NCBI RefSeq assembly: GCF_004135585.1
Contig: NZ_CP035501.1
Coordinates: forward strand, 3,295,501 to 3,359,500
DNA: 64,000 nt
Source of the DNA: Sphingosinicella sp. BN140058
GTDB lineage: Bacteria; Pseudomonadota; Alphaproteobacteria; Sphingomonadales; Sphingomonadaceae
Reading direction: 5' to 3'
Part shown: in pieces, positions 5,497 through 20,388 of the stretch
Numbering within the stretch: position 1 is the stretch's first letter
How the letters are laid out: every line of letters starts with the position of its first letter
Position numbers and translations under genes: made by a program
Notes under the pieces: generated by a model
Told to the model about the DNA's origin: nothing
Database searches by the model: none
What the model saw: only the letters and a program-made list of their open reading frames with translations

Positions 5497-5512
5497 CTGT
5501 AACCGGTTACAG
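5497..5512. promoter_or_regulatory. LacI-family operator upstream of the TonB receptor operon
   Basis: A perfect 16-base palindrome, CTGTAACCGGTTACAG, lies 39 bases before the TonB receptor start. A central CG flanked by AACC/GGTT is typical of LacI-family operators. The 12-base core GTAACCGGTTAC occurs again at 16568-16579 beside the lacI-type gene, which makes that regulator the likely ligand. The position fits repression over or just downstream of the promoter, with induction by an imported sugar (inferred). Confidence 0.8.
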
Positions 5513-5550
5513 AAACACAAAGAACAGTCGGAATTGGGGAGTCAGGAGAG

Positions 5551-8500
5551 ATGGCGTTTCTGCGGAGCAATCGTCGCCCGGCGCGGCACGGCGGAATGAT
5601 GCGGCTGGCTGCAGCCTTGCTTGCGACCGGGGCGCTGACGGCGCTCGTCGCCACGCCGGCGCACGCGCAGGAGAATAATGCGTCGCTGCGCGGCCGGGTG
5701 ACCGTGGAGGGCACCGCCCGCGTCGAAGCGGTCGAGGTCAATACCGGCCTGCGCCGGTCCGCCGAAGTCGGACCCGATGGAAGCTACAATCTCGCCTCGC
5801 TGCGTCCGGGCACCTACCGGCTCGAGATCACGACGCCCACAGGCACGCGCAACACCGACGAATTCACCCTGAATGTCGGCCAGAATGCGGAGCTCGACTT
5901 CGATTTCTCCGCAGCGCCGGATCAGCCGGACGCGGTCGCCGAAGGCGAGGGGATCATCGTCACCGCGTCGCGCCTGCGGACGATGGAAGGCGGCGAGATC
6001 GGTACCACGATCACGCCGCGCCTGATCGAGCAGCTGCCGCAGAACAATCGCAACTTCCTCGCCTTCGCGGATCTTGCCCCGGGCGTGCAGTTCGTCACCG
6101 GTGCGAACGGCGAATCGCGCCTGCAGGGCGGTGCCCAGGACAGCCGTTCGGTGAATATCTTCATCGATGGCATCGGCCAGAAGGATTATGTCCTGAAGAG
6201 CGGGATCACCGGCCAGGATAGTTCGCAGGGCAACCCGTTCCCGCAATCCGCCATCGGCGAATATCGGGTGATCAGCTCCAACTACAAAGCCGAATTTGAT
6301 CAGGTCAGTTCGGTCGCGATCACCGCGATCACAAAATCCGGCACCAACGAATTTCATGGCGACGGCTTCATCGACTTCACCAACCAGAGCCTGCGCGAGA
6401 AGACGCCGATCGAGATCCGCAACGGCGCCGACAAGGTCAAGACCAAGGACATCCAGTTCGGCGCCTCGCTCGGCGGCCCGATCATCCGCGACGTCATGCA
6501 CTTCTTCGTCGCCTATGAGGGCAAGAGGCAGGAAGTGCCGGTCGAGATCACGCCCGGCAACGGCCGCACCGTGGAGAGCTTCCCGGCCGAATATCGGGAG
6601 CTGTTCGGCACCGTGAACCGGTCGTTCAACGAGGACCTGTTCTTCGGCAAGCTCGATTTCTCGCCCACGTCGAAGGACCTGATCGAGCTTTCAGGCAAGT
6701 ATCGCGACGAGACCTCGGTCGGCCTCAACAGCGGCCAGCAGGCGGTCAGCCGCGCCACCGACACGATCAACGAGGAAATCCGCATCCTCGGCCGCTGGGA
6801 GCATAGCGAGGAATCGTGGATCAACGATTTCAAGATCGCCTATGAGGACGTCAGCTGGGCGCCGACGCCGAGGGTGTTCGAGAACGGCACCATCCTGCAG
6901 GCGACCAACACCCGCGCCAGCCTGCTCGAGCTCGGCGGCAGCGGCAATTACCAGGACAAGGGCCAGAAGGGCTGGACCATCCAGGACGATTTCACCTTCA
7001 CCGGCTTCAAGGGCCACACCATCAAGGCCGGCGTGAAGGCGAAGTTCGTGAAGCTGAACTCGCTGCAGCTCAACAACACCAACGCGCAATATTTCTACAA
7101 CACCGATTTCAATCCGAACGGCGGCACGTTCAACGCCACCATTCCCTACCGGGTCCAGTTCGGCGCCAACACCGGAGTCGCCGATCCGATCGTCAAGTCC
7201 GACAACTTCCAGTTCGGTATCTACCTGCAGGACGATTGGGACGTCACGGAACGGCTGACGCTGAACCTCGGCCTGCGCTGGGATTATGAGAAGACGCCCG
7301 CCTTCCTGGATTTCGTGACGCCGGCGGATGCGGTGGCGGCGGTGTCGCCGGCCAACTATCCGAACCTCAACGGCGCCGATTACGACATTCGCGATTTCAT
7401 CTCGACCGGATCTGGGCGCGAGCCGTTCCTCGGCGCCTTCCAGCCGCGCATCGGCTTCAGCTACGATCTCGACGAGGAAGGCCGGTTCCAGGTGTTCGGC
7501 GGCTATGGCCGCTCCTACGACCGCAACCAGTTCGACTTCTTGCAGCAGGAGCTCACCCAGGGCGCCTTCACGACGCGAACGTTCAACTTCATCACCGGCG
7601 ATCCGCTCAACACCTGCGTGGCCGGCCCGACCTGCGTCGCGTTCAACCCGATTTACCTGACCGAGGAAGGACGGCAGCAATTGCTGGCGGGGACCGCGGG
7701 AGGCCGCGGCGGCGGCGAGCTCCGTTTCATCAACAACGATCTCAAGACGCCCTATTCGGACCAGTTCAGCCTCGGCGCGCGCGGCCGCTTCGACCTTGTC
7801 CAGCTCGAAGCGGGCTATTCGCACATCGAGAGCAAGGACGGCTTCGCCTATCTGCTCGGCAACCGCCGTCCGGACGGCAGCTTCTTCGCGCCGAACCAGC
7901 GGCCGGATTCGCCGTTCGGCTTCGCGCCGCCGGGCTTCGGATCGATCCTGATCGGCACCAACGGCATCGAGACCAGCGCCGACTCCGTCTATCTGAAGCT
8001 CACCAAATCCTACCGGCCCTCGTCGCCGTGGAGCCTGGATGCGACCTACACCTATACCGAGGCCGAGGAGAATCGTGCGTTCGGCGAGGTGTTCTCGCTC
8101 GATTACGCGTCGCTCGACGATTATCCGGTGCTGCGTTCCTCGGGTGTCCGCAAGCATCGCTTCGTCGCCGCCGGCAGCGTCGATCTGCCGATCGGGGTCA
8201 CCCTGTCTTCCAAGATCACTCTGGCCTCCCCGCCCTTCCTCAAGGGCTTCGTCAACCAGGCGACGGCGCCGTTCGAGCGTCTGGTGGTCGGCACCTGGGC
8301 GGACAGCAACGGCGATCGCTGGGGCTTGCGCCAGGTCGATCTGGCGGTGACCAAATATCTGCCGCTCAAGTTCCTGACCAAGGAATCGCAGCTGCGGCTG
8401 CGCGTCGACATCATCAACCTGTTCAACGATCGCAACTTCGTCGACTTCAACACCGATCCGAACGACACCACCAGCACGGTGGGATCGCCGAGCGTGTTCG

Positions 8501-8574
8501 GGGGGCGCAGCGCCTACGGCATCGGCGGCAATCCGACCCGGACGATCAAGCTTTCCGCCGGGTTCAGCTTCTGA
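5551..8574 (+). CDS. Oar-like TonB-dependent receptor (putative saccharide importer)
   Basis: This is a 1007-residue outer-membrane receptor. It has a signal peptide ending near APAHAQ (about residues 1-40), then a carboxypeptidase-regulatory-like beta-sandwich (about 42-105; GSYNLASLRPGTYRLEI). A Ton-box/plug follows (EGIIVTASRLRTMEGG onward), then a long beta-barrel ending in the aromatic terminus AGFSF. AGGAGAG sits immediately before the ATG. It is a receptor of the Oar/CarboxypepD_reg type common in sphingomonads. It is followed at once by a GH144-like glucanase and preceded by a LacI-type operator, so it probably imports glucan oligosaccharides. The substrate is inferred from neighbours only. 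Confidence 0.93.
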   Translation: MAFLRSNRRPARHGGMMRLAAALLATGALTALVATPAHAQENNASLRGRVTVEGTARVEAVEVNTGLRRSAEVGPDGSYNLASLRPGTYRLEITTPTGTRNTDEFTLNVGQNAELDFDFSAAPDQPDAVAEGEGIIVTASRLRTMEGGEIGTTITPRLIEQLPQNNRNFLAFADLAPGVQFVTGANGESRLQGGAQDSRSVNIFIDGIGQKDYVLKSGITGQDSSQGNPFPQSAIGEYRVISSNYKAEFDQVSSVAITAITKSGTNEFHGDGFIDFTNQSLREKTPIEIRNGADKVKTKDIQFGASLGGPIIRDVMHFFVAYEGKRQEVPVEITPGNGRTVESFPAEYRELFGTVNRSFNEDLFFGKLDFSPTSKDLIELSGKYRDETSVGLNSGQQAVSRATDTINEEIRILGRWEHSEESWINDFKIAYEDVSWAPTPRVFENGTILQATNTRASLLELGGSGNYQDKGQKGWTIQDDFTFTGFKGHTIKAGVKAKFVKLNSLQLNNTNAQYFYNTDFNPNGGTFNATIPYRVQFGANTGVADPIVKSDNFQFGIYLQDDWDVTERLTLNLGLRWDYEKTPAFLDFVTPADAVAAVSPANYPNLNGADYDIRDFISTGSGREPFLGAFQPRIGFSYDLDEEGRFQVFGGYGRSYDRNQFDFLQQELTQGAFTTRTFNFITGDPLNTCVAGPTCVAFNPIYLTEEGRQQLLAGTAGGRGGGELRFINNDLKTPYSDQFSLGARGRFDLVQLEAGYSHIESKDGFAYLLGNRRPDGSFFAPNQRPDSPFGFAPPGFGSILIGTNGIETSADSVYLKLTKSYRPSSPWSLDATYTYTEAEENRAFGEVFSLDYASLDDYPVLRSSGVRKHRFVAAGSVDLPIGVTLSSKITLASPPFLKGFVNQATAPFERLVVGTWADSNGDRWGLRQVDLAVTKYLPLKFLTKESQLRLRVDIINLFNDRNFVDFNTDPNDTTSTVGSPSVFGGRSAYGIGGNPTRTIKLSAGFSF

Positions 8575-8597
8575 TCGCCGTAGGCAATCCGAGGCGC

Positions 8598-10064
8598 GTG
8601 GCGGCGGCCGCCGGCGCGCTCCTCGCAGCGATGGCGCTTTCCGCCTGCCAGGCGGGGGGCGCCCGCGGCGGCGCGCCGGTCTTCGGTGTCGCGCCGCCGC
8701 AGGAACAGGAGGCGTTCGTCGAGGATCTGAGCCGACGGACCTTCCGCTATTTCTGGGACACGACCAGCGCGGACACCTGCCTGGCGCCCGATCGCTGGCC
8801 GTCCAATCCCTTTTCGAGCATCGCCGCGACCGGCTTCGCGCTTACCGCCTACCCCGTGGGGGTCGAGCGCGGCTATGTCAGCCGGGCGGAAGCGGCCGAG
8901 CGCACGCTCGCCTGCATGCGCTTCTACCACGATGCGCCGCAGGGACCGGAGGCTGCCGGCGTGAGCGGCTACAAGGGCTTCTTCTACCACTTCCTCCGCA
9001 ACGACAACGGCCAGCGCTTCGGCACCACCGAATTGTCGACCGTCGACACCAGTCTGCTGCTCGGCGGCATTCTGTTCGCACAATCCTATTTCGACCGCGA
9101 CGATCCCCGCGAGCGCGAGATCCGCGATCTGGCCGAGGCGATCTACCGCCGCGTCGACTGGACCTGGGCGCAGCGAAGCAACACCGGGACCAAGGCCGCC
9201 AACCTGCCGAACTCGCACGGGATCACGATGGGCTGGCGGCCGGAGCGCGGCTTCGAGACCCATGATTGGGTCGGCTACAACGAAGGCATGCTGGTCTACG
9301 TCCTCGCGGCGGGCTCACCGACCCACCCGATCGGCCGCGATGCCTGGGACAAGGGCTGGGCCGCGCGCCTGGAGGAGAGCTGGGGCACCTTTTACGGACA
9401 GCAGCATCTCGGCTTCGCGCCGCTGTTCGGCCACCAATATAGCCATGTCTGGGTCGATTTCCGCGGCATTCGTGACGATTTCATGCGCGGCAAGGGGATC
9501 GACTATTTCGAGAATAGTCGCCGCGCGACGCTCGCCCAGCGCGCTTACGGCCTCGACAATCCGAACGGCTGGCGCGGCTATGACGGCGACATCTGGGGGT
9601 GGACGGCGTCGGACGGGCCCGGCGACCATCAGCGCGCGGTCGGCGGTGCGATGCGCCGCTTCTTCGGCTATGCGGCGCGCGGCGTCGCGGCAACCGAGGT
9701 CAGGGACGACGGCACCGTCGTTCCGACCGCCGCCGGCGGCTCGATCCCGTTTGCGCCGGAGATCACGCTGCCGGCCCTGATGGCGATGAAGCGGACATAT
9801 GGCGCGCGTCTCTACACGCGCTACGGCTTCAAGGATTCGTTCAACCCAAGCTTCACCTTCGCCGATCTGCGCAGCCATGACGGACGTGTCGATCCGGAGC
9901 ATGGCTGGTTCGCCAACGATCATCTCGGCATCGATCAGGGGCCGATCCTGGCGATGCTCGAAAATCACCGCAGCGGCCTCGTCTGGAAGACGATGCGGAA
10001 GAACCCGCACATCCGGACCGGGCTGACCAGGCTCGGCTTCACCGGCGGCTGGCTGGATCGCTGA
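8598..10064 (+). CDS. Glucoamylase-like/GH144-type glucanase, putative lipoprotein
   Basis: The product (about 488 residues) matches the 'glucoamylase family' (glycoamylase-like domain, CAZy GH144 type), whose characterised members are endo-beta-1,2-glucanases. Recognisable family stretches include RRTFRYFWD, SSIAATGFALTAYPVG, GYKGFFYHFL, STVDTSLLLGG, GWRPERGFETHDWVGYNEGM and HQYSHVWVDFRG. The N-terminus has a lipobox-like LSAC, suggesting a lipid-anchored envelope enzyme. No ATG is available. GTG 8598 has GAGG three bases upstream but leaves out an arginine pair (NPRR) expected in the signal-peptide n-region, so initiation may be further upstream (for example CTG 8571, overlapping the receptor stop). 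It is in one operon with the receptor. Family assignment is fairly secure; beta-1,2 specificity is not. Confidence 0.85.
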   Translation: MAAAAGALLAAMALSACQAGGARGGAPVFGVAPPQEQEAFVEDLSRRTFRYFWDTTSADTCLAPDRWPSNPFSSIAATGFALTAYPVGVERGYVSRAEAAERTLACMRFYHDAPQGPEAAGVSGYKGFFYHFLRNDNGQRFGTTELSTVDTSLLLGGILFAQSYFDRDDPREREIRDLAEAIYRRVDWTWAQRSNTGTKAANLPNSHGITMGWRPERGFETHDWVGYNEGMLVYVLAAGSPTHPIGRDAWDKGWAARLEESWGTFYGQQHLGFAPLFGHQYSHVWVDFRGIRDDFMRGKGIDYFENSRRATLAQRAYGLDNPNGWRGYDGDIWGWTASDGPGDHQRAVGGAMRRFFGYAARGVAATEVRDDGTVVPTAAGGSIPFAPEITLPALMAMKRTYGARLYTRYGFKDSFNPSFTFADLRSHDGRVDPEHGWFANDHLGIDQGPILAMLENHRSGLVWKTMRKNPHIRTGLTRLGFTGGWLDR

Positions 10065-10068
10065 AGCC

Positions 10069-11895
10069 TCAGCCCTCGTCGAGGCTCTTCTGGAGCGCGG
10101 CGAGGTAGGCGGCTGCGCCGATCTTCGGTGAGGCCGGTGCCGCCGGACGGAAGGATTTCGGCCGGTCCGACGGAACGCCGGTGCGGAATCGGCCGGCTTC
10201 GGCCGTCAAGGCCTCCACCTCTTCGGTCAGGCTGTGGGCAGAGGCAGAGGTGTGCTCGACCCGCGCGGCATTCTGGCGTGTGGCCTCGTCCATCCGAGCG
10301 ACCGCGGCGCTGACCTGGCTGATCGCGGCCGACTGCGCCTGGTTGTCTCGGGCGACGCTGCCGATCAGATCGTGGACGGCGCCGACGTCGCGGCCGATAC
10401 CCTGCAGCGCGTCGCCGACCTTGCGAACGACCTGGACGCTGGTGCCGATGCCGTTCTGGGTCGCGGCGAGCTGCTGGCGGGCGCGCTTCGCCTCCTCTTC
10501 GGAGCGCATTGCCAAGGCGCTGACGAGATCGGCGACCACCGCAAAGCCGCGCCCGGCCTCGCCGGCACGGGCCGCTTCGACCGTGGCGTTCATCGCCAGC
10601 ACACGGGTCTGAAAGGCGATCTGGTCGAGCCCTTCGATCACCGAATCGATGTTCGCGGCATTGTCGCTGACCTCGCCCATCGCCCGCACTGCATCGGCGG
10701 CGAGCGCCTGGCCGGCCGCGAGGCTGGCCGCGGCCTCGTCGGCGCGCTTCACCGTTTCGGCGGCGGAACCCGCCGTATCCCTGAGCCTCTGGTCGATCCC
10801 CGAGAGGGCGGTCGCGGTCTCTTCGAGATTGGCTGCGGTGTCTGCCGTCCGGCGGGAAAGGTCCGCCGAGGCGTCGGCGATCTCGGCGGCACCGGCGCCG
10901 ATCCCTGCAGCGCTCGACGAGACCGCGCCGATCAGGCCGGCGAGGCTCGCCAGCGCCTCGTTGAAGTCGCGCCGCAGCGGTTCGCATTCGTTCGGGAAGG
11001 CGCGCTCGATCGGGCGGGTGAGGTCGCCTTGCGACAGCTTGCGGAGGGCACTGCCAAGGGTCGCGACGACGTCACGCAATTCCTCCTGCTGGCGGGCGGA
11101 GGCGGCTTCGAGCCGCGTTTTCTCGGTTCCCGCATCGCGGAACGCAATCAGTGCGCGCGCGACATCGCCGATCTCGTCCTTGCGCTGTTCGCCGGTTACG
11201 CGCACGGCGAGATCACCGGCCGACATCGACCGCATCGTTCCCGCCGCGTCGGCGAGCGGTGCCACCACCTTGCGCAGCATGATGCAGCAGAAGCCGAGCA
11301 CCGACAGCAGGATGAGCAGGGCGACGGTGCCGAGGATGAAGAGTGCGCGGCTCACCTCCGTCGCGGAGCGCTCGCGTAATTCTCCCTGGAAGCGGCTTGC
11401 CGTAGCGACGGCTTCATCGATCCGGCTACGATGCTCGTCATAGGCTGCGGTCAGCCGCGCATAGCTCGCGTCGGCATCCCCGATATTGCCGGCGCGGATC
11501 GCCGGCAGGAAGCGCTCGTTCAATTCCGTCCAGAAGGCTTCTGCCGGCGCGTGCGATCCGGTGAGGATCGGCGCGCGCACGTCGGCATCTAGCGCGGATT
11601 CCTGCCAATAAGCATGGCGCGTCTCATAATCTTCCTGAAGTTTCGCGAGGCGCGCGGCGCGGGCGGTATAATCCTGCGGGTTCTGGCGCAGGCGCGTCGC
11701 CTCGAGATAGCTTTCGATGATGAACTTGGGCGGCGGCAGGATGTCGGCGATCAGATCGGAGGCTTCCTGGTTCTTGCCCTGGATCGGCCCGCCCATCCGG
11801 ATCGTGTCGATGTTCCACCACGCCGCGGCGAGGCCGAAGGCCAGCAACAGCACCAGGATGCCGCCCCCCAGGCGGACCAGATGTTTGATCGTCAT
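10069..11895 (-). CDS. Methyl-accepting chemotaxis protein (transmembrane)
   Basis: This is a 608-residue inner-membrane chemoreceptor. TM1 is at about residues 10-28, followed by a roughly 160-residue mostly helical periplasmic sensor (four-helix-bundle-like). TM2 is at about 190-212, then a HAMP domain ([23 protein letters not shown]) and a coiled-coil signalling domain. The hairpin tip reads [20 protein letters not shown]. The usual asparagine of QTNLLALNA is replaced by Arg-Val here, a departure from consensus at the kinase-contact region. It converges with the glucanase gene (4-base gap). No che genes are in the window. It may sense ligands linked to the saccharide locus, but this is only positional. 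Confidence 0.93.
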
Positions 11896-11985
11896 GTCCC
11901 TCGCGCCCCTGTCCCGCGATTCAGCCGCTACGTGTTACTACGGCATGATAGAACGAAGACGCGCCCGTGACGGGCTTTGGCTGGG

Positions 11986-13428
11986 CTAAATCTCCGCTGG
12001 GCCGTGCCGATCCTCGACAGCCTGCGCCGACGGGGGAAGCGTCAGGAACGCGGCCATGCCCGCAAGGATCGCGAGCGCGGCCCCGATCAGGGCGGCGGCA
12101 TGAAAGGCGTCGACGAGGGCGGCGCCGGCCTCTGCAATGACGGCGCCTGCGAGGGCCGTCGCTACCAAGCCGCCGGTGCGGGCGATTGCGCTGTTGAAGC
12201 CCGACGCGGTGCCGGTGTGCGCACCGTCCACCGACGACAGCACGGCGGTGGTGAGCGGCGCCACCGCGCCGGCCATGCCGAGGGCGATCACGGCGATGCC
12301 CGGAAGCACGCTGGTCCAGTAGCTGCCCAGCGGATCGACGCGAAAGAGCAAGGCGAAGCCGAGCCCCGTCACCACCGGTCCGAGGCTCAGCGGCAGCCGC
12401 GGACCGACCCTGCCGGTGAGGCCGCCGATCAGGCGTGAGGCGCCGCCGATCAGGATCGAGAATGGAAGCAGGGCGAGTCCTGCCTCGAGCGGGGTGTAGC
12501 CGCCGCCGACGATCAGGATGTAGGGCAACAGCACCAGCAGTCCGCCCAGAGCCCCGTAGAGGAGGAAGGTGAGCAGGGTGAGACCGACGAACGGCCGCGA
12601 CGCGAAGAGCGAAAGCGGCATCATCGCCTGGTCGCCGCGGCGATGCTCGACGAAGACGAAGAGGCCGAGCAGGACGAGACCTGCGGCGGCTGCGATCGCC
12701 ACCGTGCCGGCGAAGGCGCTGCCGCCGGACCACAAGGTCAGCGCCCAGGTCAGCGCGCCGAGGCCGGCCGTGGCGAGCCCGGCGCCGGGCCAGTCCAGCG
12801 CCTGCCGGCTCTTGGCATGATCGGTGACGTACCTCCCTGCGATCAGCATGGCCGCCCCGGCGACCGGAAGGTTGAGCAGGAAGATCGCCTCCCAGCCGAC
12901 GCTCTCGACCAACCAGCCGCCGAGCGGCGGCCCGACCGCGGCCGCGATTGCGCCGGAGGCGGCCCAGGTGCCGATCGCGCGCCCCTTCGCTTCGCCTTCG
13001 AATGCATTGCCGAGGATGGCGAGGCTGTTCGGCATCAGCATCGCCGCGCCGACGCCCTGCACAGCACGCGCGGCAAGCAACATGTTCAGGCTCGCGGCGA
13101 ACGCGCACAGCAGGGATGCCACGGCGAACAGTAAGGTCCCTCCGATCAGCAGGCGCTTGCGGCCGAAATGGTCTCCCGCCGCGCCGCCGAACAGCAGCAA
13201 CGCGGAGAGCGGAAGCAGGTAGGCGTTGACCGTCCATTGCAGATCCGCCGCGCCGCCGCCGAGGCTGCGGCCGATTGCTGGCAGGGCGACGTTGACGACC
13301 GAGCCGTCGATGAAGGCGAGGCTGGAGGCGCAGATCGTGGCGACCAGGATCCAGCCGGAATGCCGCACGCTGCCGTCCGACTGGGAAAGCGCCGCGCCGC
13401 GGTCGCAGGATGGGAGCGGAGTGGCCAT
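11986..13428 (-). CDS. MFS transporter, DHA2 (14-TM, EmrB/QacA-type) family
   Basis: This is a 480-residue polytopic inner-membrane protein with about 14 hydrophobic segments. The first is SGWILVATICASSLAFIDG, followed by the DHA2-typical motif DGSVVNVALPAIGRSLG. MFS motif A appears as GAAGDHFGRKRLLI. Motif C-like glycine-rich stretches are also present. DHA2 members export drugs or other small molecules by proton antiport. No adjacent TetR/MarR regulator or membrane-fusion partner is visible, so the substrate is unknown. The start is ATG at 13428. Confidence 0.92.
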   Translation of the reverse strand: MATPLPSCDRGAALSQSDGSVRHSGWILVATICASSLAFIDGSVVNVALPAIGRSLGGGAADLQWTVNAYLLPLSALLLFGGAAGDHFGRKRLLIGGTLLFAVASLLCAFAASLNMLLAARAVQGVGAAMLMPNSLAILGNAFEGEAKGRAIGTWAASGAIAAAVGPPLGGWLVESVGWEAIFLLNLPVAGAAMLIAGRYVTDHAKSRQALDWPGAGLATAGLGALTWALTLWSGGSAFAGTVAIAAAAGLVLLGLFVFVEHRRGDQAMMPLSLFASRPFVGLTLLTFLLYGALGGLLVLLPYILIVGGGYTPLEAGLALLPFSILIGGASRLIGGLTGRVGPRLPLSLGPVVTGLGFALLFRVDPLGSYWTSVLPGIAVIALGMAGAVAPLTTAVLSSVDGAHTGTASGFNSAIARTGGLVATALAGAVIAEAGAALVDAFHAAALIGAALAILAGMAAFLTLPPSAQAVEDRHGPAEI

Positions 13429-13947
13429 GGTCTATCGCGTGCTCCGCCTCAGCATCGGCCAGGTTGCTCCGTTGCGTCGCGCGAACGCTAGAGCCGAGGC
13501 GCGGACGCAGCAATGCCCTGGCCCCGCCTTACCGACGAGAGTGACACGTCGCAGCTTCCCCGCCGGCAGGTCTTCATGGCCTTGCGAGGTAGTGGCTCAT
13601 TTCGGCACAGCAATAAAAACCGAGACTTTGTCGCGCTTTAGTGGCCCGTCTCCCCAATATTGGGGATGCGCTTCATGCGCTGCAAAGGTAAACGGGTGTT
13701 AACGGGTGCGGAGCTTTCGGCCGAGCGCTCGTGAAATGGGGGTCATCACTTTTTCTGTACTCGGGCGATGGCGGCGAAGCCGCTTTCGCGATTGCAGCGG
13801 CGCGTCCTGCGGCGCTGACGGGGCTCGGCCGGCGGGATTGCAGATCCGCGGCGGGGGAATTGAGGGCGTCTGACAAGCGGATCATGTTGCTTCAGGCGGG
13901 AAGGCCGCCGGGGCGCATGGTCATCATTCAATATGAGGGGAATGACG
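13429..13947. other. 519-base intergenic region upstream of the curlin-repeat gene
   Basis: This region lies between the divergent exporter and curlin-repeat genes and must hold both promoters. Short open frames on both strands lack ribosome-binding sites and family resemblance, and I do not call them genes. The stretch around 13600-13700 is less GC-rich than its surroundings (for example CAATAAAAACC) and contains the 16-base palindrome listed separately. The curlin gene therefore has an unusually long leader or regulatory region, as expected for a heavily regulated matrix gene. Confidence 0.6.
13651..13666. promoter_or_regulatory. Perfect 16-base palindrome upstream of the curlin-repeat gene
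   Basis: TCCCCAATATTGGGGA is a perfect 16-base inverted repeat with no loop. It lies about 280 bases before the curlin-repeat start and about 220 bases before the exporter start. Such a spacer-free palindrome is more likely a dimer-binding operator than a terminator, since no T-run follows. The binding protein is unknown. Confidence 0.4.
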
Positions 13948-15069
13948 ATGAAGGCCATTATCCACGTCACCGTATCCGCGCTCGCACTGGTCGCCGCGGC
14001 ACCGCTTCTCGCGCAGAACAATGACTCGACCGTCGTCCAGGCCGGCAGCGACAACGGTGCCAACGTCGCACAGAGCGGCTCCGATGCGGCGTCCGACGTC
14101 GACCAGAATGGCAGCAACCTGCGTGCCAAGGTGACCCAGAGCGGATCGGGTGCCGACGCAACCATCGATCAGGGCGTCGGCGCGGACGGCATCGCCAGCG
14201 GCGCCGAAGCGACGATCACCCAGCAGTCGGACGCCACCGCGAAGATCGACCAGACCGGTGTCGCCGGCGGTGCAAGCCGTGCGATCAAGGCGACGATCAC
14301 TCAGGACGCCAATGCGGAAGGATCGACCGCCAGCGTTCTTCAGCGCATCTCGACGACCACCGAGGCGACGATCCTGCAGAGCGGGACCGACAACAGCTCG
14401 ACGGTCGCCCAATATCAGGGGCATCACTCCGCCTATAACGAGCAGAGCGGCGCCGACAATGAATCGACGATCAGCCAGGGTGGCAGCAACACCGTCGCCG
14501 AGGTCCGCCAGTCCGGCAATTTCGGCAAATCGACCGTTACAATCTTCGGCAACAATGACGGCGCCTATGTCGATCAGCTCGGCGAGAGCAACACCTCCAC
14601 CATCTACCAGGGCGCAAGCAACGCGCTCGCCGACGTCTGGCAGGATGGCGCGGACAACGTCTCCGGCATTTCGCAGGGCGAGCAGAGCGATGCCTATGTG
14701 ACGCAGCTCGGCGAGAACGGCACCTCGTCGATCAGCCAGACCTTCGGCGAGTCGGCGCGCGTGACTCAGACCAGCCTCTCGGTGGGTGCGAGCTCGACGA
14801 TCACGCAGACCGGCAACTGGTCGTTCCACGACAATGCCGCCGAGGTGACGCAGAATGGCGAGGACGTGACCTCGACGATCACCCAGACCGGATCGGGCAT
14901 GCTCGCAACCGTCGAGCAGGAAGGCGTCGGCTCGGCGTCGACCATCCTGCAGACCGGCACCGGCCACAGCGCCGTCGTCAGCCAATATTCGGACGACAAC
15001 AGCTCGACCGTGACCCAGAGCGGCAGCGGCAACAGCGCGGTCGTGACCCAGGGCACCGGCGGCTTCTAA
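13948..15069 (+). CDS. Secreted curlin-repeat (amyloid-like) protein
   Basis: This 373-residue protein has a signal peptide (MKAIIHVTVSALALVAAAPLLAQ). The mature part consists almost entirely of short repeats. I count about 29 units of roughly 10-13 residues, most centred on Q-x-G or Q-x-x-G. Examples are STVVQAGSDNGANVAQSGSD near the start and STVTQSGSGNSAVVTQG at the end. This is the curlin (CsgA/CsgB) pattern S-x-V-x-Q-x-G-x-x-N-x-A, which forms stacked beta-strands in curli amyloid. CsgA is about 150 residues, so this is more than twice as long. It has no cysteine and is rich in Ser, Thr, Gly, Asp and Gln. ATG 13948 is chosen over in-frame ATGs at 13933 and 13942 because AGGGG lies seven bases before it. 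No csgEFG-like secretion genes are adjacent. A surface or matrix role is inferred. Confidence 0.85.
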   Translation: MKAIIHVTVSALALVAAAPLLAQNNDSTVVQAGSDNGANVAQSGSDAASDVDQNGSNLRAKVTQSGSGADATIDQGVGADGIASGAEATITQQSDATAKIDQTGVAGGASRAIKATITQDANAEGSTASVLQRISTTTEATILQSGTDNSSTVAQYQGHHSAYNEQSGADNESTISQGGSNTVAEVRQSGNFGKSTVTIFGNNDGAYVDQLGESNTSTIYQGASNALADVWQDGADNVSGISQGEQSDAYVTQLGENGTSSISQTFGESARVTQTSLSVGASSTITQTGNWSFHDNAAEVTQNGEDVTSTITQTGSGMLATVEQEGVGSASTILQTGTGHSAVVSQYSDDNSSTVTQSGSGNSAVVTQGTGGF

Positions 15070-15094
15070 CCGGTCAACACGTGGGGGAACGAAG

Positions 15095-15129
15095 GAGCCG
15101 GCGCCGCAACACGGGGCGCCGGCTCTTCC
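15095..15129 (+). terminator. Hairpin terminator after the curlin-repeat gene
   Basis: An 11-base perfect stem (GAGCCGGCGCC, 15095-15105, with GGCGCCGGCTC, 15115-15125) and a 9-base loop begin 26 bases after the stop. Only a weak T-rich tail (TTCCATTCC) follows, so termination may be partial. Confidence 0.65.
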
Positions 15130-15183
15130 ATTCCAATGCCGCCTCCGCCGTTCGGCGGTCCGAGCTCTCGATCCGGAGCAAGC

Positions 15184-15426
15184 ATGATGACAAACTTGGC
15201 CGTGGAAGTCCCAGGCGATGCGGCGCGTGGCAGAATGATAGCCGACATCCTCGAGAGCGGGATTTCAAGATCGACGGACGGGATCTTGGCGGATCCGGGT
15301 TCTCGGACGGCGTGGGTCGAGGACCGTTCTGCCGCACGATGGGCTTTCAACTTGTTCCGCAGCTGGTGGCTTGCTGCCGCGACGCCGACGACCGTCGAAG
15401 AGAAGCAATTTCTGATCGAGATCTAG
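15184..15426 (+). CDS. Small hypothetical protein (80 aa)
   Basis: This is an 80-residue open frame with GGAG (15175-15178) suitably placed before ATG 15184 or 15187. The product (MMTNLAVEVPGDAARG...EKQFLIEI) has no recognised motif, signal peptide or cysteine. It has one Trp-rich hydrophobic stretch (FNLFRSWWLAAATPTTVEEKQF). An FRSWW-type segment followed by a short acidic tail recalls small uncharacterised sphingomonad proteins, but I cannot name a family. It lies between the curlin terminator and the convergent lacI-type gene. It could be a real small gene or a chance frame. Confidence 0.45.
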   Translation: MMTNLAVEVPGDAARGRMIADILESGISRSTDGILADPGSRTAWVEDRSAARWAFNLFRSWWLAAATPTTVEEKQFLIEI

Positions 15427-15461
15427 GACGGTCGATCGGCCCGCGACGTCACCGGTAGCCT

Positions 15462-16484
15462 TCAGAGCCCGTGTTCGGCCATCTCGTCGCTGTTCGCCCC
15501 CGCGGTGGTGCCGCGTACCACCAGTTCGGGGAGGTGGCGCTCGTTCAGCACGCGCTCGATCTTGCCTTCGAGCCGATCGATCAAGCGGGTCACGGCACGC
15601 TCGCCGATCTCGGCGATGCGGACCCGGCAGGTGGTGAGCGACAGATAGCGCGCCATTGGCACGTCGTCGAACCCGGCGATGGCGACTTCGTCCGGCACCT
15701 GCACTCCCGCGGCGCGGAGCGTCTGCAAGCAGCCGATCGCCATCATGTCGTTGGCCGCGAAGACGCCGTCGACGCCCCGCCGATCGGCCAGCATCTCGCG
15801 GGCCGCGGCTTCGCCCGCATCCTCTTCGAAATTGCCGGCGAAGATCAGGGGCTCGATGCCGGGGGCGTAGCGGGCCATCGCCTTGAAATAGCCCCTGGCA
15901 CGTTCCCGCGCGTCGATATTCTCCTCGGGACCGGCAATGTGGAGGATGCGGCGGCAGCCGATACCGACGAGGTGGCGGATCGCCGCCTGCGCCCCGGCTT
16001 CATTGTCGATGCGCACCGAGGGGCGCGTCGCCACGTCCACGGGCGCGTTGATCAGCAAGGCGGGAAGGGTCGCGGGCAGGGCCTGCTCGAGCATTTCCGG
16101 AGGCACGTGCGGCGCCATGACGAGGATGCCGTCGACGCGGCCGTGCATCGCCCGCAGCGCGGTCGGCGCCTGATCGCCCTCCGCATGCATGTTGGACAGC
16201 AACAGGAAGAATCCCCGCCGGCTCGCCGCCCGGTCCATGCCGCGCACCAGTTCGGAAAAGAACTCGCCGTGAAGATCGGGGAGCACCACGCCCAGGGCAT
16301 TTGCGCGCGCGAGGCTGAGGCTGCGGGCGCCGGCATGGGGTACGTAGCCCAATTCGTTGGCGGCGGCGATAACCCGATCGCGGGTCGCCTGGCGAACGTT
16401 GTTGAGGCCGTTCAGCGCACGCGAGACGGAGGCGACGGACACTTTGGCCCGCCGGGCAACGTCTCGTATCGTGGCTTCAGCCAT
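15462..16484 (-). CDS. LacI-family transcriptional regulator of the saccharide locus
   Basis: This is a 340-residue LacI/GalR-type repressor. The N-terminal helix-turn-helix is TIRDVARRAKVSVASVSRAL, followed by a hinge helix (GARSLSLARANALGVVLPDL). A periplasmic-binding-protein-like sugar-binding domain follows (about residues 60-335; DGVFAANDMMAIGCLQTL and VAIAGFDDVPMARYLSLTT are diagnostic). The ATG at 16484 is preferred because GGAGGGG lies just upstream; a longer frame to 16547 lacks support. It is divergent from the GH3 gene, with an operator core at 16568-16579 between them. The same palindrome sits before the TonB receptor. It is therefore the probable regulator of both transcription units and of itself, with a sugar or oligosaccharide inducer. 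Confidence 0.93.
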   Translation of the reverse strand: MAEATIRDVARRAKVSVASVSRALNGLNNVRQATRDRVIAAANELGYVPHAGARSLSLARANALGVVLPDLHGEFFSELVRGMDRAASRRGFFLLLSNMHAEGDQAPTALRAMHGRVDGILVMAPHVPPEMLEQALPATLPALLINAPVDVATRPSVRIDNEAGAQAAIRHLVGIGCRRILHIAGPEENIDARERARGYFKAMARYAPGIEPLIFAGNFEEDAGEAAAREMLADRRGVDGVFAANDMMAIGCLQTLRAAGVQVPDEVAIAGFDDVPMARYLSLTTCRVRIAEIGERAVTRLIDRLEGKIERVLNERHLPELVVRGTTAGANSDEMAEHGL

Positions 16485-16567
16485 CGGATCCCCTCCGCAG
16501 CGAACCCGTCCGTCCCCCACGCCTTCGGGTTCTAACGGTGATTGCATTTACCGCCAAGTGCAGTCAT

Positions 16568-16579
16568 GTAACCGGTTAC
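16568..16579. promoter_or_regulatory. LacI-family operator in the lacI/GH3 divergent intergenic region
   Basis: The perfect 12-base palindrome GTAACCGGTTAC is identical to the core of the site at 5497-5512. It lies 84 bases before the regulator's start and 104 bases before the GH3 start, so one bound repressor could control both promoters. Confidence 0.78.
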
Positions 16580-16682
16580 GGGCGGCTTGCACAAGCATCA
16601 ATGCGCCGACCCGAACACAGGTGCAAGGACGGCGAGACCTGGATTGCCGTTCCGACGTCGCACCCGTCGAGGAGAGGCTTGA

Positions 16683-18971
16683 ATGATCGACAGCAGGATT
16701 TCGAGGCGCGCGGCGCTGATGGGCGCCGGTGCGGTTGCAATGTGGCTGCACAGCCCGGCGCGCGCTTTCCTCCAGTCGATGGCGAAACTGCCGGTGCCGG
16801 CGCTCGTCGACGGGTTGATCGCCCGCATGACGGTGGAAGAAAAAGCCGGTCAGCTGACCTTGAACCCGAGTGCGTGGGGCGGCGGAGTCGCCACTCAGCT
16901 CAATCCGCCGACCTCGGGTCCGAGCTGGGAGGCGCAGCTCGACGAGGTCCGCCGCATGCAGCTGACCGGCGTGTTCAACAGCAACGGCGCCGAAGCGGCA
17001 CGGCGGATGCAGACGGTTGCGATGACCGAGAGCCGCCTCAAGATCCCGCTGCTGTTCGCCGCGGACATCATCCATGGCCACCGCACGATCTTCCCCGTCG
17101 GCGTAGGGGAAGCGGCAAGCTTCGAGCCCGATCTCGCCGAACGGACCGCGCGCATGGCCGCCTACGAGGCGGCGGCCTCGGGCATCGACTGGACCTTCGC
17201 GCCGATGGTCGACATCGCCCGCGACCAGCGCTGGGGCCGCACGATGGAAGGTGCGGGCGAGGATGTTCTGCTCGGCGAGCTGATGGGCGCTGCGCGCGTG
17301 CGCGGCTTTCAGGGCAAGGACCTCAAGGCCACTGATGCGATGCTCGCCTGCGCGAAGCATTTCGCGGCCTATGGTGCGGCAGAAGCGGGGCTGGACTATA
17401 ACAGCGTCGACATTTCCGAGCGGACGTTGCGCGAAGTCTACCTGCCGCCGTTCAAGGCCGCGTTCGAAGCCGGCGCGTTGTCGGCCATGGCCTCGTTCAA
17501 CGAGATTTCCGGCATTCCGTCGACCGGCAATCCCTGGCTGATGCAGGATCTGCTGCGCGGCGAATGGGGCTTCGAAGGCTTCGTCGTGTCGGATTATACC
17601 GGCGACGAGGAGATGATCGCGCACGGCTTTGCCAAGGACGCGCGTGAGGCGGCCAAGCTCGCCTTCCTCGCCGGTGTCGACATGAGCATGACGAGCAACT
17701 TCTACCGCAATCACCTGCCCGATCTGGTGCGGAGCGGCGACGTGCCGGTCGCGCGGCTCGACGCCTCGGTGCGGCGCGTGCTGGCGATGAAGGCGGCGCT
17801 CGGCCTGTTCGATGATCCGTTCCGCCGGATCGATCCCAAGCGGGAAAAGGCGCGCTCCCGCACCAAGGCGGCGACGGCGCTGTCGCGGGAGGCCGGCCGC
17901 AAGTCGATCGTGCTGCTGAAGAATGACGGCGACCTGCTGCCGTTACCCAGATCCCGACGCAAGATCGCGATCATCGGCCCCTTTGCCGCAGGGCAGCACG
18001 ATCTGAATGGGCCGTGGGTGATCTACGGCGACAATGCCGAGGCGGTCGATCTCGCCACCGGAGTCCGCAACGCCGTCGCCGACAAGGCCTCGATTCAAGT
18101 CGTCCAGGGCTCCGGGGTCGAGGAACCGCTCGCCGGCGGAATCGACGCGGCGGTGGCGGCGGCACGGGACGCCGATGTCGTCCTGCTCGCGATCGGCGAG
18201 AACGAAGGCATGTCGGGTGAAGCGCAGTCGCGACCGGAGATCGTCGTGCCGGCACCGCAGCAGGCTTTGGCCGAGGCGGTCGCGACGGTCGGCAAGCCTA
18301 TGGTGGTGGTGCTCAAGAACGGGCGCGCCCTCGCCCTCGAAGGCGCCGTCGCGAATGCACCCGCCATTCTCGTCACCTGGTTCCTCGGTACCGAAACCGG
18401 CAATGCCATCGCCGACATCCTGTTCGGCGCCCACAGCCCCGGCGGACGCCTTCCCTGCAGCTTCCCCCGGTCGCCCGGACAGCAACCTTATTATTACGCC
18501 CACAAGCCGACGGGCCGTCCCAATCCCGGCGAGAAGCTCGAGCCGTACAAGGCGCATTATCGCGGCATTCCGAACTCAGCGCTGTATCCGTTCGGCCACG
18601 GCCTCACCTATGGCAAGATCGACTATGCCGGGCTCAGCGTGTCGCCCACCCTGCCATGGGCCGGAACGCTGACCGTCTCCGCGCGAATCAGCAACCGCGG
18701 CACCCGCGCCGCCGAAGAGGTCGTGCAGCTTTACGTGCGCGATCGCGCCGCGAGTATCACCCGGCCGGTGCGCGAGCTCAAGGCATTCCGCAAGATCGCG
18801 CTGGCACCGGGCGAGAGCGAGACGGTGCGGTTCACCCTGACGCGCGACAATCTGATGTTCATCGGGCGCGACAACAAGCCGGTGGTCGAGCCCGGCCAGT
18901 TCGACCTTTGGATCGCGCCGTCCGCGGAAGCCGAGGGCCTGCACGGTACGTTCGAGCTGACCGCCGGCTGA
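16683..18971 (+). CDS. GH3 family beta-glucosidase (BglX-like), Tat-exported
   Basis: This 762-residue glycoside hydrolase family 3 enzyme releases glucose from the ends of beta-glucan oligosaccharides. The N-terminus SRISRRAALMGAGAVAMWL has a twin-arginine signal, suggesting folded export to the periplasm. The TIM-barrel domain carries KHFAAYG and the nucleophile motif GFVVSDYTG, with D304 as the predicted nucleophile. The C-terminal alpha/beta sandwich has the acid/base loop ENEGMSGEAQSR. A fibronectin-III-like domain ends the protein (EEVVQLYVRDRAASITRPVRELKAF). Domain order and length match BglX-type periplasmic enzymes. It is divergent from the LacI-type regulator and convergent with the GPH symporter. 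Confidence 0.95.
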   Translation: MIDSRISRRAALMGAGAVAMWLHSPARAFLQSMAKLPVPALVDGLIARMTVEEKAGQLTLNPSAWGGGVATQLNPPTSGPSWEAQLDEVRRMQLTGVFNSNGAEAARRMQTVAMTESRLKIPLLFAADIIHGHRTIFPVGVGEAASFEPDLAERTARMAAYEAAASGIDWTFAPMVDIARDQRWGRTMEGAGEDVLLGELMGAARVRGFQGKDLKATDAMLACAKHFAAYGAAEAGLDYNSVDISERTLREVYLPPFKAAFEAGALSAMASFNEISGIPSTGNPWLMQDLLRGEWGFEGFVVSDYTGDEEMIAHGFAKDAREAAKLAFLAGVDMSMTSNFYRNHLPDLVRSGDVPVARLDASVRRVLAMKAALGLFDDPFRRIDPKREKARSRTKAATALSREAGRKSIVLLKNDGDLLPLPRSRRKIAIIGPFAAGQHDLNGPWVIYGDNAEAVDLATGVRNAVADKASIQVVQGSGVEEPLAGGIDAAVAAARDADVVLLAIGENEGMSGEAQSRPEIVVPAPQQALAEAVATVGKPMVVVLKNGRALALEGAVANAPAILVTWFLGTETGNAIADILFGAHSPGGRLPCSFPRSPGQQPYYYAHKPTGRPNPGEKLEPYKAHYRGIPNSALYPFGHGLTYGKIDYAGLSVSPTLPWAGTLTVSARISNRGTRAAEEVVQLYVRDRAASITRPVRELKAFRKIALAPGESETVRFTLTRDNLMFIGRDNKPVVEPGQFDLWIAPSAEAEGLHGTFELTAG

Positions 18972-18978
18972 CGATCCG

Positions 18979-20388
18979 TCAGCGTTCGTCTTCGAGCGCG
19001 CGCACGATACGCGCATGCGCACCGCGGGTGAGCGGGTTGAACGCCATGAGCGCGCAGGAGACGATCAGGAAGCCGAGCGGGACCAGCGCGATCGTCCAGC
19101 GCATCGCCGCAAGGGTCGAGGTCGCCTGGGCTTCATTTGCGACGTAGCCGGCGGACTCGAAGCTCCAGCCCAGGATCGCGGTCGCCAGTCCGATGGCGAT
19201 CCGCTGCAGCAGAGCGGCGAGGCCGAACACCGTTCCCTCGACTCGCAGGCCGGTGGTGCGCTCGCCATATTCGATCGTATTGGGCAGCATCGCCCAGAAG
19301 GCGAAGTTGAGGCCGACGATCGCGACCTGCATGCCGATCAGGTAGATCTGCATCGCTCCGGCGCCGTGAATATCGAGCGCGGCGAACATTGCGAGGCCGG
19401 CGACGGCGAGTGAAGCGGCGAGAAACCAGAGACTGCGGAGGCCCACCGCCCGCGCCAGCAGCATCCAGGCCGGTACCGCGATCGCGCTGACCAGGCTCAT
19501 CGATGCGAGCGCAAGCTGGGCTTTGTTCTCCGCGCCGATATAATATTTGAAGTAATAGAGGATCGATTTGTTGAGCACGGTGATGGCGACGATCATCGCC
19601 ATCATCGCCAGGTTCAGCGTCACGAACGCACGATTGCCGGCCAGGCTGCGCAATGCGGCGCCGATCGAGACCGGAGGGTGTGCGGGCGGCGCTTCGCCCT
19701 CACGGTACGAGCGGCCGACGATCAGCAGGATTGCCGTTCCGAGCAGTGCGAACAGCAGGGCGCTGCCGAGATAGGCATCGGCCGCGACCGCGCTCCCGGT
19801 CAGCCATGTCCCGATCGGCACCGTCACGAGCGCCACCACCACCGCTGCGGAGGTGCCGAACAGCATCCGCATGCCCGCGACGAAGGCCCGGTCCCGGCTG
19901 TCGATGCTGATCCGCGACGACATGGCGAGATAGGGCACGTTGACCAAGCCGTAAAAGGTGCGGAACAGGAGATGGCTGCCGAAGACGAACGCGATCGCCC
20001 AGCCGCCGCTCGCCGGCGGCGGCGTGTAGGCGAGGGCGAAGGTCAGCCCAAGCGGGATGCTGCCCAAGGTCAGCACCATGCCGTAGCCCCGCGTGGAACC
20101 CCGGCGGTCGGCGACGATCCCTGCCAGGAAGTTCGCCACACCATCCCAGATCGAGGCCAGCATGAAGGTGGTCGCCGCGATCCGCATCGGCAGCCCCAAT
20201 GCGTCCGTATAGTAGAAGAGCAGGAAGAGCATGACGCTCTGCCAGTAGAGATTGAAGGCGAAGTCCCCGAATGCGAACAGCAGCAGCCGCAGCTTGCCCA
20301 CGGAGGCGGCGTGCGCCCGGTTCACGATTTCGGCCAATGCCTTGCGTCCTCTCGAACCCGCCATCCCAACCCCGGGCGCGAGCGTCAA
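18979..20388 (-). CDS. GPH-family (MelB-like) sugar:cation symporter
   Basis: This is a roughly 469-residue inner-membrane transporter with about 12 hydrophobic segments. Motifs typical of the glycoside-pentoside-hexuronide family are visible: GDFAFNLYWQSVMLFLLFYY in the first helix, IWDGVANFLAGIVADRRGS (MelB-like helix II and loop), and the late motif GERTTGLRVEG. It probably brings mono- or disaccharides released by the glucanase and GH3 enzyme into the cytoplasm. Start choice is uncertain. TTG 20388 has GGAGG ten bases upstream; ATG 20364 lacks an obvious site and would shorten the protein by eight residues. No LacI-type palindrome is visible in front of it. Confidence 0.9.
   Translation of the reverse strand: MTLAPGVGMAGSRGRKALAEIVNRAHAASVGKLRLLLFAFGDFAFNLYWQSVMLFLLFYYTDALGLPMRIAATTFMLASIWDGVANFLAGIVADRRGSTRGYGMVLTLGSIPLGLTFALAYTPPPASGGWAIAFVFGSHLLFRTFYGLVNVPYLAMSSRISIDSRDRAFVAGMRMLFGTSAAVVVALVTVPIGTWLTGSAVAADAYLGSALLFALLGTAILLIVGRSYREGEAPPAHPPVSIGAALRSLAGNRAFVTLNLAMMAMIVAITVLNKSILYYFKYYIGAENKAQLALASMSLVSAIAVPAWMLLARAVGLRSLWFLAASLAVAGLAMFAALDIHGAGAMQIYLIGMQVAIVGLNFAFWAMLPNTIEYGERTTGLRVEGTVFGLAALLQRIAIGLATAILGWSFESAGYVANEAQATSTLAAMRWTIALVPLGFLIVSCALMAFNPLTRGAHARIVRALEDER

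Follow-up and report, generated by a model that had tools for sequence, protein, structure and literature searches.

A predicted beta-1,2-glucan scavenging regulon in Sphingosinicella, joined by shared LacI-type operators

Introduction

Many bacteria, symbionts and pathogens among them, produce beta-1,2-glucans, and little is known of the consumers of these glucans or of how the genes involved are switched. Here we describe a candidate beta-1,2-glucan regulon of Sphingosinicella sp. BN140058, one locus of which lies in a stretch of 64,000 nucleotides (contig NZ_CP035501.1, positions 3,295,501 to 3,359,500; referred to here as the window, whose numbering is used for all positions given without a genome or locus name). 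The locus carries genes for a TonB-dependent-type receptor, a putative endo-beta-1,2-glucanase of glycoside hydrolase (GH) family 144, a LacI/GalR-family repressor (here LacI), a GH3 beta-glucosidase, and a GPH-family symporter (Table 1).

The closest described enzyme is XcSGL (XCC2207) of Xanthomonas campestris pv. campestris. According to PMC12102758, XcSGL belongs to GH144, is active on beta-1,2-glucan and inactive on the other polysaccharides tested (xylan was not among them), and has three residues, E239, F286, and Y367, that are named as clan defining. For a GH144 cluster of Ignavibacterium, a TonB transporter has been proposed, with the statement that this lacks biochemical evidence (PMC8861115). 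Regarding regulation, the titles and abstracts of open-licence PMC papers contained, among the matches listed, neither a LacI regulator of GH144 genes nor a sphingomonad beta-1,2-glucan regulon. Word-start searches found no glucan, Sphingo-, or sophor- in the main text of PMC4052901 and no glucan, LacI, or GH144 in PMC7142613, which deals with sphingomonad receptors.

On the strength of sequence comparisons, we consider it quite probable that the locus belongs to a LacI-controlled regulon, joined by shared operators, for scavenging beta-1,2-glucan of foreign origin.

Results

The first-pass annotation of the window had proposed a split regulon marked by one palindrome, GTAACCGGTTAC, before the receptor gene and between the lacI and GH3 genes. 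Re-reading of the sequence confirmed GTAACCGGTTAC at 5499 to 5510, within operator 1, and again as operator 2 (Table 1). The two operators are 11.1 kb apart, and no other match with up to two mismatches is present in the window. A search of the whole genome (6,069,985 bases in 2 contigs) bore out that the palindrome is not common: it has three exact places, each 5' of sugar-uptake genes, and a control pattern (GTAACCGGTTAC read backwards) has no exact match. At two mismatches the palindrome is rarer than this control (81 versus 135 matches); thus, only exact and near-exact sites are informative, and the two-mismatch sites of the genome were not used.

The third exact site (G000:C1:3876590, G000 being this genome) lies outside the window; it is separated from operator 2 by 565 kb and from operator 1 by 576 kb. 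It stands 25 bases 5' of the gene for a 978-amino-acid (aa) receptor, which is followed by DUF6445 and GH43 genes; a tryptophan (Trp) halogenase gene lies on its opposite side. This receptor shares 34% identity with the window receptor (999 aligned columns). The original two-site proposal was incomplete, as the third operator enlarges the regulon.

Table 1. Features of the locus (window positions)
Feature	Position	Strand	Evidence and remarks
Operator 1	5497-5512		CTGTAACCGGTTACAG; perfect 16-bp palindrome, 38 bases 5' of receptor start codon
TonB-dependent-type outer-membrane receptor, presumed glucan importer	5551-8574	+	PF25183, PF00593, N-terminal CarboxypepD_reg
Putative GH144 endo-beta-1,2-glucanase	8598-10064	+	PF10091, 288 bits; open frame from 8028
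Methyl-accepting chemotaxis protein	10069-11895	-	Between the halves; same place in G001, 82%
DHA2-type major facilitator superfamily (MFS) efflux transporter	11986-13428	-	Between the halves; no tie to the regulon
Curlin-repeat protein	13933-15069	+	Between the halves
LacI/GalR-family repressor	15462-16547	-	Helix-turn-helix (HTH) and periplasmic-binding-protein domains
Operator 2	16568-16579		Core of ATGTAACCGGTTACGG, between divergent lacI and GH3 genes
GH3 beta-glucosidase	16683-18971	+	Pfam; above cut-off of BglX model PRK15098; Tat-type signal
GPH-family sugar:cation symporter	18979-20388	-	Above TIGR00792 cut-off; convergent with GH3 gene

The operator follows the repressor through the genus. 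Among 26 genomes, G000 included, GH144 (E value cut-off, 1e-30) was found in 8, GH3 (1e-200) in 8, and LacI (1e-60) in 7, and all three occur together in seven genomes (G000, G001, G006, G009, G015, G018, and G019). Precisely the 7 genomes that hold this LacI also have the exact operator, which is absent from the 19 others; these counts are not independent draws because the genomes are related. All but 1 of the 13 exact sites adjoin regulon genes, and alignment of the intergenic regions shows operator 2 to be conserved in G001, G006, and G019. On contig G019:C149 (L157:638-5890), an exact operator precedes a third-type receptor gene that is paired with genes for DUF6445 and a GH3 paralogue (55%).

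The wider comparison covered 80 GH144 loci, i.e., the best 80 of at least 569 relatives, from which 125 upstream regions were kept (65 of receptor genes and 60 of lacI genes; those that fell short of 200 bases or lacked a complete 5' end were excluded). With at most 1 mismatch in 14 positions, the operator occurs in 43 of the 65 receptor upstreams and 21 of the 60 LacI upstreams, where the highest values for 200 shuffled palindromes were 0 and 1. With at most 2 mismatches, 45 receptor and 31 LacI upstreams match, against control maxima of 1 and 5. Together with the 26 genus genomes, these loci strengthen the shared-operator reading. In 14 of 15 LacI upstreams outside Sphingomonadales, a TGTAAACGNTTACA-like site is present that differs from the pattern at 1 to 4 positions; L093 has none.

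The usual order in Sphingomonadales is GH3, receptor, and GH144, with LacI some kilobases away; in Novosphingopyxis, GH3, operator, LacI, receptor, and GH144 stand in a row. The order LacI, receptor, GH144 is seen in many loci of Gammaproteobacteria, Gemmatimonadota, and Acidobacteriota, some of them with a gap before GH144. An operator-like sequence inside GH3 genes of Sphingopyxis and Erythrobacteraceae loci (GTGTAATCGGTTAC) was rejected as a site, because by eye its opposite strand spells the GH3 nucleophile motif V-T-D-Y-T. Two further neighbours were recorded. A GH97 gene lies near the GH144 locus of a Qipengyuania genome (L043:567, 633-2690), with a near-operator, GTGTAACCGGTTGCAT, upstream of it; close variants of the latter (TGTAACCGGTTGCA) recur in several related loci. 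Directly after GH144 in Novosphingopyxis (L105:11401-14538), a gene encodes a 1045-aa protein with an F5/8C domain and otherwise no firm Pfam family, a candidate beta-1,2-glucan enzyme or binding protein.

The window LacI has V-A..R at LacI positions 17, 18, and 22, and an even palindrome with a central CG lies 5' of its own gene, which, with the two domains in Table 1, is the picture of a local regulator. GalR likewise has V-A and binds a TGTAA half-site. Among the 11 LacI-family HTHs of the genome, V-A..R is unique to the window LacI, and its 10 paralogues are 28 to 33% identical to it. In LacI numbering, residues 17 and 18 set operator bases 5 and 4, and Arg22 favours G at base 6 (PMC2978694). 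Of the 61 LacI rows from GH144 loci, 53 read V-A..R and 5 I-A..R; the 3 unparsed rows are a partial one, a second LacI of 33% in L066, and one in L063. The LacIs of these loci are 43 to 95% identical to the window LacI, except for extra second copies of 31 to 33% in L066 and L075. In a LacI tree that comprised the window protein, its 10 paralogues, and the LacIs of 21 selected loci, the window LacI groups with that of G001 (100/100) and then with those of G006 and G019 (99/96).

Pfam and NCBIfam confirmed the gene calls for the receptor, glucanase, LacI, GH3, and GPH. The window receptor, which had no Plug match in this search, is 56 to 69% identical to the receptor directly 5' of GH144 in most Sphingomonadales loci and 35 to 37% identical in three. 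A lipoprotein-type box (LSAC) is present in the glucanase, for which the sequence points to GTG 8598, 23 bases past the receptor stop codon, as the probable start. Its placement in GH144 by the first-pass annotation held: the closest solved structure is 8xul, i.e., XCC2207 (XcSGL; 563 bits; E value, 4.5e-168), followed by CpSGL (157 bits), BDI_3064 (147 bits), and PgSGL3 (Group 3, GH194; 29.9 bits), with no further characterised SGL-clan member among the 13 structure matches. Residues E238, F286, and Y367 of the glucanase (P0001) align with XcSGL E239, F286, and Y367, and D159 is an acid at the place of CpSGL E142 (alignments by eye; positions confirmed). The newer families GH192 to GH194 were rejected on the grounds that XcSGL is a GH144 enzyme (PMC12102758) and that the GH194 structure matches at 29.9 bits only.

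The N terminus of the GH3 protein, MIDSRISRRAALMG, is the Tat-type signal, with SRRAALM. Its closest structures include JMB19063 (616 bits), 6r5i (599), 5xxl (594), which we take to be the Bacteroides enzyme BT_3567, and Lin1840 (535). Arg612 and Tyr622 align with JMB19063 Arg587 and Phe598, the equivalents of Lin1840 Arg572 and Tyr583; the protein thus has the +1-subsite arginine and aromatic partner of the Lin1840 clade. In Lin1840, Arg572 (JMB19063 Arg587) favours sophorose and laminaribiose over cellobiose (PMC4757417). Arg612 is therefore consistent with sophorose as a substrate but does not prove it, because the arginine is also present in close homologues of other reported use.

The full uptake route proposed by the first-pass annotation ended with the GPH symporter. 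The GPH gene adjoins the GH3 gene in 6 of 6 LacI-bearing relatives, which ties it to the locus; its control by the operator is unsupported. Receptor, GH144, GH3, and LacI are linked by operators and the inner-membrane transporter by synteny only. The two halves of the locus are also closer than the approximately 7 kb originally given, with a measured gap of 5.4 kb between the glucanase and lacI genes. Within this gap, the chemoreceptor, whose position is shared with the sister genome G001, could sense the same sugar. The curlin-repeat protein (378 aa) is longer than the curli subunits of the matched NCBIfam models (about 150 aa).

In G001, one contig (C11) holds the receptor/DUF6445/GH43 genes, GH144, lacI, GH3, and GPH with operators as a single locus. 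In order, it carries an endonuclease-type gene, a Trp halogenase gene, the operator CTGTAACCGGTTACAG, a third-type receptor gene (70% to the third-site receptor), DUF6445 (63%), and GH43 (79%); these are followed by the chemoreceptor (82%), DHA2 (79%), curlin, and GH144 (56 to 58%) genes and CTGGAACCGGTTACAC, and then by LacI (95%), ATGTAACCGGTTACGG, GH3 (90%), GPH (83%), and PrmA (86%). The DNA alignment of the window with C11 ends near the end of the endonuclease-type gene and restarts at the chemoreceptor gene, and inside this gap the window matches only the sister GH144 gene, at 72% and inverted. The receptor-GH144 pair of the window thus sits where the sister has the Trp-halogenase/receptor/DUF6445/GH43 genes, and the operator before it shares all 16 bases with that of the sister. 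In G000, which has only one PF10091 gene and lacks the sister-type GH144, the receptor-DUF6445-GH43 operon is retained at a distance of 565 kb, preceded by an operator of its own.

For a GH144 tree, 31 loci were chosen; 30 of them yielded a GH144 longer than 380 residues, which together with the window enzyme made 31 rows. The window enzyme groups with those of G025 and 11 other Sphingomonadales (13 rows, 100/100), and the enzymes of G001, G006, and G019 form a separate clade (100/100). The window arrangement is probably the derived state, the likeliest course being that the resident GH144 was replaced by an incoming pair under the resident repressor; we infer both the direction and the donor.

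Discussion

The operators, their conservation, the gene families, the key residues, and the synteny are observed. From them we infer binding, inducer, substrate, and the location of each step as follows. LacI would bind TGTAACCGGTTACA-type operators before the receptor-GH144 operon, between its own gene and the divergent GH3 gene, and before the receptor-DUF6445-GH43 operon 565 kb away. Beta-1,2-gluco-oligosaccharides in the cytoplasm, or a product such as sophorose, would release the repressor. A GH144 lipoprotein at the surface or in the periplasm would cleave beta-1,2-glucan, the TonB-type receptor would move fragments to the periplasm, the Tat-exported GH3 would trim them to glucose, and the GPH symporter would probably carry the sugar over the inner membrane. 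Cyclic or linear osmoregulated glucans of neighbouring bacteria would be the source. The palindromes, shared operator, and GH144 family of the first-pass annotation are retained, its beta-1,2-glucan substrate remains a prediction, and neither its scavenging of own glucans nor operator control of the GPH gene is supported.

Besides the relatedness of the genus genomes, several observations weigh against this regulon. In G006, an AAA ATPase gene and a LysR gene flank one of the exact sites, and G025 carries the receptor, GH144, and a 48% GH3 but neither this LacI nor the site. No operator was found in 6 of 6 GPH upstreams, the window included (best, 5 to 7 mismatches in 14; the truncated G019 gene was excluded). 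In the GH144 loci, a tolerance of 3 mismatches is too loose, since one control then reaches 43 of the 65 receptor upstreams versus 47 observed (LacI upstreams, 38 observed and highest control 16; control means, 0.7 and 0.8), and even so 22 of the 60 LacI upstreams lack a site. A separate site for the receptor is missing from most loci of Gammaproteobacteria, Gemmatimonadota, and Acidobacteriota, and Spirosoma-type and several other loci have neither LacI nor this receptor. Among the paralogues, L019 shares Ala at position 18 (T-A), and the LacI tree places L027 and L028 within the GH144-linked LacIs, on a branch that is long and of unsure position. The GH43 of the third operon matches solved GH43 structures only weakly. 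Finally, a one-mismatch site, CTGTAACCGGTTTCTG (G000:C1:335110-335121; L158:1111), lies 88 bp before an operon whose genes encode a TonB receptor, two Trp halogenases, and a GH27 alpha-galactosidase. The operator type may therefore serve other glycans or other repressors, and the regulon may reach beyond beta-1,2-glucan.

The last point leads to the strongest alternative, which we hold as a tentative possibility: LacI may be a broader glycan regulator that controls beta-1,2-glucan, GH43-substrate, and perhaps alpha-galactoside operons through one operator type. The exact operator before the receptor-DUF6445-GH43 genes, the near-match before the receptor-GH27 operon, the pairing of a third-type receptor with a GH3 paralogue in G019, and the GH97 gene beside a near-match in one Erythrobacteraceae locus all point this way. 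However, GH43 shares a locus with GH144, lacI, and GH3 in G001 and G019, directly beside GH144 in the latter, so that its substrate may be the same glucan. Other LacI paralogues, of which the genome has 10, could be the partners of the GH27 and GH97 sites, neither of which is perfect. Of the seven one-mismatch places in the genome (L005 to L011), three (L005, L009, and L011) were checked in Pfam; the three comprise the place 88 bp before the GH27 operon, one inside a GH31 frame near its start, and one inside an alpha/beta-hydrolase frame. The site CTGTAACCGGTTTCTG and its GH27 operon are possibly a further target of the same or a related repressor.

It is unlikely that the operator is common to several LacI paralogues and that the two halves of the window locus answer to different regulators. 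With CG at the centre of an even palindrome, the motif is of a type common in the LacI family (PMC4052901); the genome has 11 LacI-family genes, and one paralogue has Ala at position 18. Nevertheless, V17-A18 is found only in this LacI, the site tracks this LacI over the 26 genomes, and the genome's own paralogues reach 28 to 33% identity as against 43 to 95% for the LacIs of GH144 loci (the extra copies in L066 and L075 apart).

Many alphaproteobacteria make osmoregulated glucans, and GH144 and GH3 are both predicted to be exported, which would suit recycling of the bacterium's own glucan from the periplasm, the other source named by the first-pass annotation. We give this very little credence: the genome has no MdoG match, no GH94 match, and no second PF10091 gene (e.g., a cyclic glucan synthase), although an OpgH-type glycosyltransferase was not searched for, and such recycling needs no outer-membrane receptor. 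Own synthesis of cyclic or Opg-type beta-1,2-glucan is thus unlikely, and scavenging of the glucans of others is the better reading. That chance palindromes lie beside ordinary sugar genes is hardly credible, given that the exact sites and the footprint in relatives are far above controls, even though at two mismatches the pattern is no commoner than its control in the genome and 6 of 100 shuffles of the window (mean, 0.34 matches) also reach 2.

Regarding the scavenging regulon itself, we lean slightly towards a wider account. In it, a dedicated beta-1,2-glucan repressor with a GalR-like operator accompanies receptor-GH144 pairs across Sphingomonadales, Xanthomonadales, Gemmatimonadota, and Acidobacteriota, and here a pair from another clade replaced the resident GH144 behind an unchanged 16-bp operator, leaving the regulon whole despite exchange and scattering. 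The locus resembles a regulon that outlasts gene exchange and scattering, apparently because the same sequence was kept or acquired at its operators. As marks of GH144 loci in several phyla, the repressor and operator would serve as a sequence flag for bacteria that feed on beta-1,2-glucan, and they offer a test of the inducer. As a system it is of an ordinary kind, a conventional sugar regulon; what is new is the predicted link of regulator to substrate, its reach, and the gene exchange behind a constant operator.

The nearest counterpart is in X. campestris pv. campestris, where XCC2207 and XCC2208 would be adjacent from their numbers. Like the window pair, they comprise a GH144 enzyme and a receptor; XCC2208 is described as having no canonical plug domain (PMC1790865), and the window receptor has no Plug match. 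Unlike the window pair, they belong to a different class of Proteobacteria and have no operator or regulator described in the text consulted. The Xanthomonas sux locus likewise combines a LacI-family repressor, a TonB receptor, an inner-membrane transporter, and an enzyme for one sugar (PMC1790865); it handles sucrose, whereas the set described here is divided among operons that lie far apart and share operators. Clusters of Listeria innocua, Bacteroides thetaiotaomicron, and Ignavibacterium album resemble the locus in combining a GH3 active on beta-1,2-gluco-oligosaccharides, GH144 or GH94, and transporters (PMC8861115 and PMC4757417), although those of Listeria and Ignavibacterium use ABC (ATP-binding cassette) transport and GH94 phosphorylase-type enzymes; the window genome has no GH94 match. 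As for the mode of control, the BglR and GluR regulons of Caulobacterales (PMC4052901) are a further alphaproteobacterial case in which LacI-family regulators govern glucoside or glucose genes.

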